Shown here piece by piece: positions 1,721 to 56,175 of a stretch of 64,000 nucleotides of DNA; positions within the stretch are counted from its first letter, which is position 1, and each line of letters starts with the position of its first letter. This DNA comes from Candidatus Gastranaerophilales bacterium (GTDB lineage: Bacteria > Cyanobacteriota > Vampirovibrionia > Gastranaerophilales > Gastranaerophilaceae). The position numbers were made by a program, and so were the translations under genes. The stretch is taken from positions 157,593 through 221,592 of the forward strand of contig CALUYO010000004.1 in NCBI GenBank assembly GCA_944325005.1, read 5' to 3'. The notes beneath the pieces were generated by a model, which had not been told where the DNA came from, made no database searches, and was given only the letters and a program-made list of their open reading frames with translations.

Positions 1721-1765
1721 ATGAACGAAAAGTTATATGAAAGCCGCGGGGGGGGGGCGTTTTAG
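1721..1765 (+). other. Short leader reading frame containing G10 tract (locus 1)
   Basis: Good Shine-Dalgarno (AAAGGAGC) and ATG, encoding MNEKLYESRGGGAF and then TAG. The ten-G tract supplies the glycines. With one more G the frame would run 47 codons and stop at a TGA that overlaps the ATG of the following prepilin gene (1860) in an ATGA arrangement. The peptide could be a leader that couples translation, or the relic of a longer gene head like those at 6803, 24418 and 35937. Confidence 0.5.
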
Positions 1766-1772
1766 AGCTCCT
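1747..1772 (+). repeat. G10 element, copy 1 (C-G10-C-N7-AGCTCCT)
   Basis: Ten G at 1748-1757 flanked by C on both sides, then GTTTTAG and AGCTCCT (1766-1772). It is one of seven copies in the window with the same layout. Downstream it closely matches the copy at 5647. Confidence 0.9.
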
Positions 1773-1790
1773 GCAGCGCATTTTCAAGGG

Positions 1791-1818
1791 TTGCAAAATT
1801 CCAAAAAACTGTTATAAT
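1791..1818 (+). promoter_or_regulatory. Internal promoter for the prepilin-like gene at 1860
   Basis: TTGCAA (1791-1796), 16-base spacer, TATAAT (1813-1818) with an upstream TG. The arrangement is almost identical at 5691-5718 before the paralogue, so it is probably functional. It lets the prepilin be expressed independently of the upstream G10 leader. Confidence 0.65.
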
Positions 1819-1859
1819 AGTGATATATATATATTCACATTAATGATGGAGATTTTGGA

Positions 1860-2507
1860 ATGAAAAAAGCGTTTACACTTGCAGAAGTATTGGTAACTTT
1901 GGGAATAATCGGCGTAGTGTCGGCAATGACCGTCCCAACTTTGATGCAGAATTACCAGCGTCAGAGTTATGTAACCCAGCTGCATAAGGTCTATAACGAG
2001 TTTGCACAGGCGTTAACCCAATACCAGACAGACAGAAATGCAGTAAATTTAACAGAAGCTGGTTTAAATTCTCAGGCAAATTTAAATTCCTTTATAACAA
2101 GCTATTTTAGAGTTGTCCAAACCTGCTCGAATTCTTTGACACCTTGTTTTTTGGAGCAAACATCTTATAAAGCATTAAACGGAACGGCTTTACCAGCTCA
2201 TTATACTGTTACAAATGCTTATGTTTTGGCAAGCGGGGCATCTGTAAGATTTTTATATGCTAAAGAAGGAGAAAAAGTTGGGAATATAATGGTTGATATC
2301 AACGGTCAAAAAGGTCCGAATATTCTTGGCAGGGATTTATTTACTATAGGTGTATATAATAATGGTATAATGGATGAGAATGGCACATCTGCCCCTTTAA
2401 CAGAAGATGCAAGAAATACTTTGTATAACAACGGCTGTTCTACCGGAGCAACTGCCTGGGGATGTTTTGGAAAGATTCTTAATGATAACTGGGAAATGAC
2501 TTATTAA
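1860..2507 (+). CDS. Type IV prepilin-like protein (N-terminal cleavage/methylation domain)
   Basis: 215 residues. The leader MKKA is followed by FTLAEVLVTLGIIGVV: a short basic leader, the prepilin peptidase site before Phe, Glu at mature position 5 and a hydrophobic N-terminal helix. The C-terminal domain has a Cys pair near residues 88-95, a 'KGPNILGRD' motif, a second Cys pair and the tail 'GCFGKILNDNWEMTY'. About the first 72 residues are nearly identical to the paralogue at 5758, and the middle diverges. Such proteins act as pilin or pseudopilin subunits at the inner membrane and surface. No assembly ATPase or platform gene is nearby, so it is an orphan subunit. Confidence 0.85.
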   Translation: MKKAFTLAEVLVTLGIIGVVSAMTVPTLMQNYQRQSYVTQLHKVYNEFAQALTQYQTDRNAVNLTEAGLNSQANLNSFITSYFRVVQTCSNSLTPCFLEQTSYKALNGTALPAHYTVTNAYVLASGASVRFLYAKEGEKVGNIMVDINGQKGPNILGRDLFTIGVYNNGIMDENGTSAPLTEDARNTLYNNGCSTGATAWGCFGKILNDNWEMTY

Positions 2508-53555: not shown

Positions 53556-53909
53556 ATGAACCCTATTATTGATGAATTGGAAAAATCTTATTTAAGAGAA
53601 AATCTTCCTGAAACAAATCCGGGCGATACTGTTAAAGTTTTCGTAAGAATTGTTGAAGGTAACAAAGAAAGAATTCAGGCTTTTGAAGGAACTGTTATTA
53701 AAAAACACGGTTCAGGTATTAATAAAACTATTACTGTTAGAAAAGTTTTTCAGGGCGTTGGCGTAGAACGTGTATTCTTACTTAACTCTCCGAGAATTGA
53801 TAAAATTACAGTTCTCAGAAAAGGTGATGTAAGACGTTCTAAACTTTACTACTTAAGAGAACGGTCTGGTAAAGCAACTCGTATCAAGGAAAAAATTGAA
53901 AAAAGATAA
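53556..53909 (+). CDS. rplS: Ribosomal protein L19
   Basis: 117 residues. 'PGDTVKVFVRIVEGNKERIQ', 'FEGTVIKKHGSGINKTITVRK' and 'SGKATRIKE' are L19 signatures. Usually grouped with rimM-trmD, but here it is first in rplS-ylqF-rnhB, a common alternative order. The next gene overlaps its end. Confidence 0.96.
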   Translation: MNPIIDELEKSYLRENLPETNPGDTVKVFVRIVEGNKERIQAFEGTVIKKHGSGINKTITVRKVFQGVGVERVFLLNSPRIDKITVLRKGDVRRSKLYYLRERSGKATRIKEKIEKR

Positions 53910-54744
53910 GCTTCATATACACTGGTATCCTGGACATATTGCGAAAGCTGAAAAAAAACTTAAAGAACAGCTCTCCTTAGTTGATGCTGTTATTGAGGTT
54001 ATTGATGCGAGAATACCTTTCTCAAGCAGTTATGATAATATTACGGGGCTTTTAGGTGAAAAGCCCCGTTTAATATTGCTAAATAAAGCTGATTTGGTTA
54101 ATACGGACGAATTGAAAATTTTTGTTAAAACTATTGAAGAAAAGTCTTGTTTTCCTGTTTTGAAATCTGATGCAAAAAATTCTAAAGATTTAAATATTAT
54201 TGTTAAAAAGGTTGTAGAGCTTTCCGAACCGAGAATTCAGGCAATAATGAAAAAAGGTCTTCTACGCAGACCTGCAAGGGTTATGGTTGTCGGAATGCCG
54301 AATGTTGGAAAATCAAGTATTATAAATAAATTAACCCGTTCTTCGAAAACTAAAATTGGTGCCAAGGCAGGGGTTACACGCCAACAGCAATGGGTGAGAA
54401 TTAATCCGCAGCTGGAACTGCTTGATACCCCCGGAATTATTCCTATGAAACAAGAAGATCAGGCAAGAGCTAAAAGGCTTGCTTTTGTGAATGCTGTGTC
54501 AGAAAATGCATATTCTAATGAAATTGTTGCAAAAGAACTTCTTGATATTCTTGATAAAAAATATTCCCAAACAGTGAAGGATTTTTATAAGGTTGATAAT
54601 CTTTCACTTGAAGATATAGCGAAATCAAGAAACTGGATTGTTTCCGGCAGCAGTCCTGATATTGAGCGTACGTCGGTTTATGTTTTAAGAGATTTTCGGG
54701 AAGGTAAAATCGGTAAATTTATTCTGGACGATTTTGAAGGATAA
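53896..54744 (+). CDS. ylqF: Ribosome biogenesis GTPase (YlqF/RbgA family)
   Basis: 282 residues. Circularly permuted GTPase: G4 'LLNKADLV' comes before G1 'GMPNVGKSSIINKL', and G3 is 'LLDTPGI'. 'IHWYPGHIAKAEKKL' is the typical start. It uses a TTG start at 53896 inside the end of rplS, with an AAGGA site. Acts in late 50S assembly, consistent with coupling to L19. Confidence 0.93.
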   Translation: MKKDKLHIHWYPGHIAKAEKKLKEQLSLVDAVIEVIDARIPFSSSYDNITGLLGEKPRLILLNKADLVNTDELKIFVKTIEEKSCFPVLKSDAKNSKDLNIIVKKVVELSEPRIQAIMKKGLLRRPARVMVVGMPNVGKSSIINKLTRSSKTKIGAKAGVTRQQQWVRINPQLELLDTPGIIPMKQEDQARAKRLAFVNAVSENAYSNEIVAKELLDILDKKYSQTVKDFYKVDNLSLEDIAKSRNWIVSGSSPDIERTSVYVLRDFREGKIGKFILDDFEG

Positions 54745-54748
54745 AATT

Positions 54749-55480
54749 ATGAGTAAATTAAAAACTACTTTAACGGCTGATTCAAAAATTATACAGCTTT
54801 TTACTTTTGACTTGAACCAGAAACGTCTTGTTATAGGTACTGATGAAGCAGGCAGGGGGTGTGGTGCAGGCGATGTTTTTGCAAGTGCTGTATGTTTTAA
54901 TCACCGTTCTCAAGAGCTTGTTGAAAAACTTGAAGATTTAAATGACAGTAAAAAACTTTCGGCTAAAAAACGTGAAGCTTTATATGATATTATTAAAGAA
55001 AATACAATAAATTCTACGGTATGCATTGAAGTAGATGAAATTGAACGAATAAATATTTTGAATGCTTCTTTAAAGGCTATGCGTCTTGCGATTGAAGATG
55101 TTATCAATCAGCTTTATCCTACTCCTCAGGGGGACAGAGAAAAGCTTATTGCACGTAATATGCTTGCAAGAAGTGAATTAATGATACTTATTGACGGAAA
55201 TAAACGTATCAGGGATTTTGATTATTCACAAAGATATGTTGTTAAAGGCGATAGCAAATCTGCTTCAATTGCTGCTGCAAGCATTCTTGCTAAAGTCAGC
55301 CGTGACAGGTATATGTTAAAGCTTGATGAAGAATTCCCGCAGTATAACTGGAAAGATAATGCAGGATATTTAACAAAAGAGCACATGGCTTTAATAGATA
55401 AATACGGAATGTGTAAGTATCACAGACCTTCGTATCTTCAAAAACATTTTGCTAAACAGGAGCAGCTTTCGTTATTTTAG
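54749..55480 (+). CDS. rnhB: Ribonuclease HII
   Basis: 243 residues from ATG 54749 (GAAGGA upstream). 'GTDEAGRGCGAGDVFASAV' holds the catalytic DEAGRG motif, 'NDSKKLSAKKRE' the next, and 'KGDSKSASIAAASILAKVSRD' the rest of the active site. Removes RNA from RNA-DNA hybrids. There is some insertion around 'YPTPQGDREKLIARNMLAR' compared with shorter homologues. Convergent with prepilin locus 7. Confidence 0.95.
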   Translation: MSKLKTTLTADSKIIQLFTFDLNQKRLVIGTDEAGRGCGAGDVFASAVCFNHRSQELVEKLEDLNDSKKLSAKKREALYDIIKENTINSTVCIEVDEIERINILNASLKAMRLAIEDVINQLYPTPQGDREKLIARNMLARSELMILIDGNKRIRDFDYSQRYVVKGDSKSASIAAASILAKVSRDRYMLKLDEEFPQYNWKDNAGYLTKEHMALIDKYGMCKYHRPSYLQKHFAKQEQLSLF

Positions 55481-56175
55481 TTATAATCTGTACGGGTAAT
55501 CTTTTGTAAATTCCCAATTTTCCATTTCTAAAAATCCGCTGCAATAGGCAGGGTGTGATTTACAGTCTTGAAGACGTTGTTCTTTAGTAGTGCTTGTTGT
55601 ATAATGATAAGGATAAAAACTTCTGTTATCTTTTAACGCAGTTTCATTTTCCGGACAAATTAGAAATCTAAAACGGTCTCTTCCCTCTTCATTAGGTGCT
55701 GTATCACCATTATAGTCAAATATAAAATCGATACAGTTCCCGTTTCTAAGTATAAATGTACTATTGTCATTCATATAGACTTTGAATAGATTTGTTTTTT
55801 CATCTTTTGTGGTATTTAAATACTTTAAATATGGTTTAAGATAATTATTGAAATATATTTCTGAATTTTCGGCATCAGCATCATCATATACAGGATTGTC
55901 AGGATCTTTTTCTATGAGATCTTCTTTCGCCCAGGTTTTGGCATTTCCGTTATCATTTTCTGACATTAGAACTGCTTGGGACATAATGCTGTTAAATTTC
56001 TTTAATCTTGCAGATGCTTCAGATTTTTTAGTATTTTGAATTAGTGCGGGCATTGTTAATGAGGCAACGACCCCGATAATTCCAAGAGTAATTAAAACTT
56101 CTGCCAGTGTGAACCCCTTAGAACCATTTAAGTTTTGCGGGGGGGGGGCAGTCTCAAAGCATCTCTATTAAACAT
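55481..56175 (-). CDS. Type IV prepilin-like protein split by an inverted G10 tract (C10 in the coding strand)
   Basis: ATG 56175, seven bases after AGGAGG, encodes MFNRDALRLPPPRKT and then TAA. The body (SKGFTLAEVLITLGIIGVV) is in another frame, and one extra C joins them into 231 residues with PPPP instead of GGGG. The G10 element faces the opposite way to the gene, so the AGCATCT motif lies between ATG and tract. The body is acidic with late Cys pairs and 'YNGDTAPNEEGRD', matching the 'KGPN..GRD' region of the others. The register error is the same as in loci 2-6. Confidence 0.76.
56138..56164 (+). repeat. G10 element, copy 7 (C-G10-C-N8-AGCATCT), inverted relative to its gene
   Basis: Ten G at 56139-56148 on the plus strand, then C, AGTCTCAA and AGCATCT (56158-56164). 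The associated gene is on the minus strand. The motif order relative to the tract is conserved, but the orientation to the gene is not. Confidence 0.88.

Follow-up and report, generated by a model that had tools for sequence, protein, structure and literature searches.

The 64,000-nucleotide stretch of DNA analysed here (the window) corresponds to C4:157593-221592, part of one of the 27 contigs that make up the 2.0-Mb genome of a Candidatus Gastranaerophilales bacterium, and it carries seven G10 tracts. The analysis of this genome and its relatives indicated that the tracts are copies of a module of ~27 bases located mainly at the starts of pilin-like genes, where it is likely to act as a phase-variation switch that is OFF at ten G for most of the genes (probability of about 0.72). 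The module, its positions, the reading frames computed from a heuristic choice of start codon, the polarity relative to guanine–cytosine (GC) skew and the differences in length between copies were all observed directly. Poly-G switching itself is known; what is new here is its scale within one gene family, the uniform length and frame, the shared motif and the replichore polarity. The host is likely a gut bacterium of the non-photosynthetic sister group of the cyanobacteria.

Tract location at pilin gene starts

The genome containing the window held 102 runs of at least eight G and 88 tracts of the form C-G10-C, in which ten G are flanked by C on both sides. The analysis was performed on 100 of the 102 runs, leaving out C22:14163 and one more, probably in L076 (repeated flanks). 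The lengths of the 100 runs were highly uniform, with 89 of ten G, seven of eleven, and one each of eight, nine, twelve and fourteen; 86 presented the C-G10-C form. Two runs are probably not copies of the module (A-G8 in L025 and T-G9 in L104), and the fourteen-G run in L071, at a contig end, resembles a read error.

As in contingency loci, where a homopolymer lies in the coding region of a surface-type gene, 87 of the 100 runs had a start codon on one side and the conserved N-terminal part of a pilin-like protein ([GA]FTLAEV-type motif) on the other. The G run was on the coding strand in 57 of these (sense copies), while the coding strand carried C in the other 30 (antisense copies). Twelve of the remaining runs had no pilin motif and one was too near a contig end. 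Given that L084, which reads AFTFAEV, is a pilin-type gene missed by the pattern, the value of 87 is a lower bound.

Reading frame and tract length

The frames of the 87 pilin copies were computed by a heuristic: the start codon judged best among those with a ribosome site 5' of the tract was taken, and the tract lengths that open the pilin frame were then derived. The obtained results showed that 80 copies open at 8, 11 or 14 G, four at 10 or 13 and one at 9 or 12, and that two never open. Eighty copies have ten G; 78 of them were shut (75 of the 8/11/14 class, one of the 9/12 class and the two that never open) and two were open. Five of the six eleven-G copies were open, all five belonging to the 8/11/14 class, and the single twelve-G copy was shut, so that only seven of the 87 pilin copies were open at their assembled length. 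By the computed frames, tract length therefore toggles the reading frame. No start with a ribosome site was present 3' of the tract in 80 of the 87 copies; among the 12 sense copies in which the tract lies far from the pilin motif, six had a start of their own after it. In 42 of 47 sense ten-G copies the shut frame reached a stop four to five codons past the start of the glycine run, and in the antisense copies the stop came later.

Length differences between close copies were observed in one pair of near-identical paralogues, of which L035 has eleven G and is open and L036 has ten G and is shut, and in the relatives, where tracts of 9–11 G occur and the same frame class was seen with nine and with eleven G (L108, L126, L141; L117, L125). 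Together, the paralogue pair and the nine- and eleven-G copies of one class indicate that length varies at the DNA level around a fixed frame. The 8/11/14 class also predominated among the pilin loci of relatives, accounting for 14 of 16 loci in a mixed genome set, 16 of 21 in G007, G043 and G044 (three loci shared with the mixed set), five of six on named contigs, 10 of 14 in G046 (one locus shared with the mixed set) and two of three in G009. The genome G002 deviates: the tracts of its pilins are 12 or 13 G long, and all seven are shut, each being one G above an open length.

A shared downstream motif on one DNA strand

A 16-position profile of the sequence after the G10 tract was built from 55 sense copies, two of the 57 being dropped for short flanks. 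When it was applied to the 30 antisense copies on the same DNA strand, the mean score was 4.73, compared with -12.4 for sequence further along in the 3' direction and -11.6 after the letters were shuffled. With columns 3–16 only, the mean was 2.0 versus -6.6, and none of 2000 permutations scored as high; when the coding strand 3' of the C run was read instead, the same copies scored -16.0. The triplet GC[TA] was found 6–11 bases 3' of the tract in 53 of 55 sense copies, 30 of 30 antisense copies and four of 10 others, compared with 26% of random 12-base windows, and in the sense copies it occurs in more than one codon phase. As sense and antisense genes share the motif on one DNA strand, it reflects the DNA strand to a greater extent than the protein. 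The possibility that the AGCT motif merely represents the prepilin cleavage site at the codon level agrees with some minimal copies (L312, L316 and L320) but does not fit the antisense genes.

A palindrome, CTACG[CT][AG]CGTAG, was seen in 17 of 337 loci and is near a G10 tract in L116, L121, L204, L325 and L330; it is possibly a separate small repeat.

Orientation relative to replication

The tracts are oriented along the chromosome. Among the 88 C-G10-C copies of the source genome, orientation flipped in only one of 69 neighbour pairs. Similar values were obtained in G043 (one of 96 pairs, among the 100 of 179 runs listed) and for the C-G10-C copies of G004 (one of 66, among the 100 of 119 listed), while G044 presented two flips in 43 pairs among the 47 C-flanked runs of 50 listed, or four in 46 when the three A- or T-flanked runs were added. 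Meanwhile, the direction of the pilin genes alternates, changing in seven of 10 neighbour pairs in C4 and four of 12 in C5, in the parts tabulated.

The leading strand was assigned from GC skew. In G044, the G strand agreed with the sign of third-position GC skew in all eight sampled segments that hold tracts, and both orientation switches fell within intervals where the skew changes sign, with one back-and-forth on C1. In the source genome, the skew was positive in the G direction at 65 of 90 loci (binomial P 1.5e-5). Judged by skew, the G run thus follows the G-rich, leading strand throughout the genome, as KOPS (FtsK-orienting polar sequences) and Chi do. The gene dnaA was dropped as a mark of the origin because its position in G044 is not at an orientation switch, and third-position GC skew was used instead; around the C2 switch of the source genome, GC skew was too noisy to be read alone.

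Module copies in the window

An earlier note made from the window had described one dispersed element spanning 1747 to 56164; this interval holds seven separate short features. As it had claimed, all seven carry the tract CGGGGGGGGGGC on the + strand with exactly ten G, at the coordinates given below, and the G content of 17.7% agrees with its estimate of about 17%. Every run of at least eight G or C in the window is one of the seven. None of 100 shuffles produced a single tract. The downstream motif AGC[TA][TC]CT after seven or eight bases held in six of the seven copies, the copy at 42324 differing in the last base (AGCTTCC). An ATG was indeed present 21–68 bases 5' of the tract for the six copies whose genes lie on the + strand; at 56138, the tract follows the start codon of a minus-strand pilin, hence the module is antisense there.

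The copies at 1747..1772 (+; C-G10-C-N7-AGCTCCT) and 5647..5672 (+) each lie in a short open reading frame (ORF), with the ATG at 1721 and 5621 respectively, and are followed by a pilin-like gene with its own start (1860-2507 + and 5758-6420 +). Three further copies are part of leaders that are shut at the assembled length: 6824..6849 (+; ATG 6803, pilin-like body 6907-7587 +), 24446..24471 (+; ATG 24418, body 24477-25175 +) and 35965..35990 (+; ATG 35937, body 35996-36634 +). The copy at 42324..42350 (+) is near the N-terminus (ATG 42256) of a non-pilin, metallopeptidase-like gene with a body to 43568 (+). The copy at 56138..56164 (+) lies antisense within a pilin-like gene on the - strand (start 56175, body 56116-55481), in which the coding strand reads C10. 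All six pilin-like ORFs found by motif in the window carry the module; a seventh match to the pilin pattern, at 25787, was judged to be chance.

Some features of these loci recur. A tract-bearing short ORF, followed by a TTG[CT][AG]AAA...TATAA-like stretch and then a pilin, was seen at 1747-1860 and 5647-5758 as well as in L059, L082 and L098. A VSGQ-like coding spacer between tract and pilin motif was noted by eye at 6850-6906 and in L049, L056 and L271; in pilins with this spacer, the motif is ~80 bases from the tract. The gene at 42336-43568 (+) contains an HExxH-type motif and gave matches to Peptidase_M91, ATLF and Peptidase_Mx1, all sub-threshold.

Abundance and taxonomic spread

The module extends well beyond the window. 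Within the genus, C-G10-C was present in 29 of 33 genomes at 1 to 165 copies, the exceptions being G013, G039, G040 and G045; within the order, it was present in 96 of 383 genomes, the 29 included. Beyond the genus, the highest counts were in g20 (59, 16 and 15 in three genomes), g37 (22 in one genome) and g18 (up to 14), and the remaining genomes had mostly zero or few copies. At the loci examined there, the tract precedes pilins in g20 (L295, L296, L297) and at some loci of other genera (L303, L304), and the majority of single hits are found elsewhere. In G009, which fits poorly, 12 of the 15 loci examined had no pilin motif by the pattern used. The strict form of the module matched five named contigs, four from Candidatus Gastranaerophilales metagenome-assembled genomes (MAGs) and one from an 'uncultured bacterium'. 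The earlier note had regarded random placement, or confinement to a single assembly, as grounds for abandoning its proposal; placement is non-random here and the module occurs in many independent assemblies, although in several other genera single C-G10-C runs lie outside pilin genes.

The pilin N-terminal family PF07963 gave 16–144 matches per genome in the 24 genomes of the genus that were searched, with 95 in the source genome, and 0–36 in 14 of 15 genomes from other families of the order. The fifteenth, G027, has 88 matches and zero C-G10-C, and is thus a second pilin expansion without this switch.

Turnover at orthologous loci

Orthologues of the pilin at 24446 are known both with and without the module. 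At the syntenic locus, the orthologue in G041 (protein 92% identical) carries a G10 tract within a different leader and spacer, G003 (73%) has G10, and in G001 (75%) the tract is missing and the gene simply begins with MKKAFTLAEV; a homologue in G002 (59%), identified by homology only, also lacks the tract. The gene at 42324 has matches in 18 other genomes of the genus, with ten G in G043, G004, G046, G018 and G015, eight G in G008 and no tract in G047, G010, G013 and G020. These differences in leaders and tracts at orthologous loci indicate that module and leader are gained, lost or replaced between species. Empty and occupied orthologues were thus seen; the leaders around the module differ between them, so that neither an insertion with clean ends nor a target duplication could be delineated.

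A viral carrier was also considered and rejected, as the viral contigs contained 0 stretches matching the strict module pattern. In G004, three double tracts in tandem, 27–29 bases apart, were set aside as evidence for duplication of the unit; one contains an N run and two repeat the flanking text.

Proposed mechanism and alternative explanations

Phase variation by slippage would operate as follows. In living cells, a G added or dropped as the DNA is replicated would shift the pilin body into frame or out of it, and in sense genes the shut frame would be terminated by a stop a few codons past the tract. The run may slip around a set-point of ten, with expression off by default, nearly the whole repertoire shut and few genes open at any time. 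The G run would have to be on the lagging-strand template if slippage or length control is to function as required; the polarity would then reflect strand-dependent slippage or length control, and this need would explain the single replication orientation despite genes on either strand. A passage of a review associates G runs on the leading strand with more substitutions (PMC10710837), which makes an orientation effect plausible, though substitution is not slippage.

Several observations weigh against this switch. Slippage alone predicts neither the replication polarity nor the AGCT-like motif. Seven of the 87 pilins, including those following 1747 and 5647, start anew 3' of the tract, which then lies in a short upstream ORF, and the switch need not act in such genes. 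The loci are related by descent, meaning that the frame counts are not independent. Three of 50 strict-pattern pilin starts, drawn from source-genome sequence biased towards tracts, had no run of at least eight within 220 bases upstream. Orientation is not perfect either: the C-flanked run at G004:C70:20839, which is not of the C-G10-C form, opposes its neighbours, G009:C113 has both orientations within 4.3 kb, and the runs of G002, C-flanked ones included, are mixed, for example at C4 51897-79936. Furthermore, 89 of the 100 runs have ten G, and length is thus more uniform than in the Campylobacter genomes for which passages of PMC6321876 give 52% of tracts at 9G and 30% at 10G. Finally, the public predicted proteins for the 24446 gene and its close homologues are N-terminally truncated (P0001, P0002, P0008, P0013), and a glycine- or proline-run leader was seen in none of the 28 public proteins examined of 120 listed. 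The truncated proteins fit the shut state but are also in line with recoding.

The region of G002 just mentioned (C4:51897-79936, L153-L163) is a cluster of G9–G15 runs that resembles classical contingency loci, and many G002 runs are not at pilins. We take the genes of this mixed region to be glycan genes.

The main rival is recoding at the RNA level, in which the polymerase or ribosome would slip at a fixed G10 or C10 and give a low, constant pilin output with the DNA unchanged. A length that is mostly ten, a near-universal single frame offset and the truncated public proteins would all suit it. However, a single rule would have to serve 57 pilin copies with G10 in the mRNA and 30 with C10, replication orientation should be irrelevant, open eleven-G copies exist, and G002 has 12–13 G and another offset; we therefore consider recoding improbable. 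An assembly or sequencing artefact is practically negligible as an explanation, despite some runs at contig ends and the apparent read error in L071, since C-G10-C recurs in 29 of the genus's 33 genomes and the module, present in four separately named MAGs, is abundant both in the majority of the genus's genomes and in a few sister genera.

The earlier note had offered three readings of the tracts. The contingency tract is the best supported, by the frame rule, the eleven-G paralogue and the pilin leaders, and the recombination signal found no direct evidence. Its third, a tiny mobile sequence, accords with occupied and empty orthologous loci and with the same unit in unrelated genes, in both gene orientations and a single replication orientation; a unit of ~20–29 bases would, in single-stranded form on the lagging-strand template, be copied to further genes, the switch being its effect. 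Against this stand the differing leaders, with no clean insertion or target duplication, and the lack of strict-form matches in viral contigs. The idea is compatible with a phase-variation switch, and its odds overlap with those of the switch; taken by itself it is rather unlikely. At that same tentative level, the module might be a self-spreading, mobile or transplantable switch cassette that, at ~20–29 bases, would rank with the smallest known. It would enter gene starts on the lagging-strand template alone, and its G10 run would set every gene it captures to OFF, one base from ON, giving roughly 90–150 pilins and some unrelated genes one shared lottery-like switch. A G-quadruplex (G4)-type recombination signal for pilin gene conversion, like that upstream of Neisseria pilE, would account for a G run beside a large pilin family and for the turnover of 5' ends (the 92% identical syntenic orthologue has a wholly different leader). 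The known signal has four G3 runs, which the single ten-G run of each gene does not provide, and this run lies mostly within coding leaders of one frame class, which makes this account quite unlikely. More doubtful still is a KOPS- or Chi-like chromosome-polarity signal that happens to fall in pilin genes: the replichore polarity is near-perfect, but the runs are not spread independently of gene family, 87 of 100 being at pilin N-termini, a single base alters the reading frame, and G013, G040 and G045 of the genus have no module or almost none.

Comparison with known systems

KOPS, SpoIIIE recognition sequences (SRS) and Chi are short polar motifs, widely scattered and oriented along the leading strand. 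The module shares this orientation; unlike them, it is found mostly at the gene starts of one family and changes the reading frame. The Neisseria pilE G4 signal is made up of four G3 runs, lies upstream of one expression locus and serves gene conversion. The likeness is a G-rich element beside a pilin gene, whereas the pilins that bear the present module carry individual tracts, located within or ahead of the reading frame.

Poly-G contingency loci are presented as well known in passages of PMC6321876 and PMC4965091. According to the former, C. jejuni strains have 18–39 phase-variable genes, with 81 in one isolate, and the ON share in the Campylobacter genome set is near neutral drift; PMC5084427 claims 115 phase-variable genes for N. 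meningitidis. The tracts described here resemble the poly-G/C loci of Campylobacter, Helicobacter and Neisseria in being G/C homopolymers in the reading frames of surface genes, with length setting ON or OFF. They differ in comprising at least 87 loci of one family, 89% of the runs at ten G and 7/87 pilin copies open, and in their common flanking motif and replication polarity. In Mycoplasma gallisepticum, vlhA carries (GAA)n repeats of which 12 GAA was held to be active, later work finding other lengths expressed too, as far as the consulted passages of PMC6258824 go. By those passages, vlhA is likewise a large surface gene family with its own repeat in each member and one length held active; its repeat lies in the promoter with a broad range of lengths (6–12), unlike the present tracts, which lie in a coding leader, act by frame and are of near-uniform length.

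No work linking Gastranaerophilales with phase variation was found in the open-access literature searched, which was available mostly as listings, and the accessible portions of the literature on Gastranaerophilales and type IV pili mention no such switch.

Implications

The N-termini of such pilins can be lost or cut short in automatic annotation, as seen in the four public proteins noted above, because these are out of frame in the assemblies. As far as sequence evidence reaches, the module is likely a mass on/off switch for surface fibres. Since it serves genes of both strands in one replication orientation, it raises the question of whether the replication strand of a homopolymer sets its slippage and preferred length. 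If the switch is true, few uniform sets of phase-variable genes drawn from one family would be larger than that formed by these pilins, and it would occur in gut bacteria for which the literature found holds no such record.

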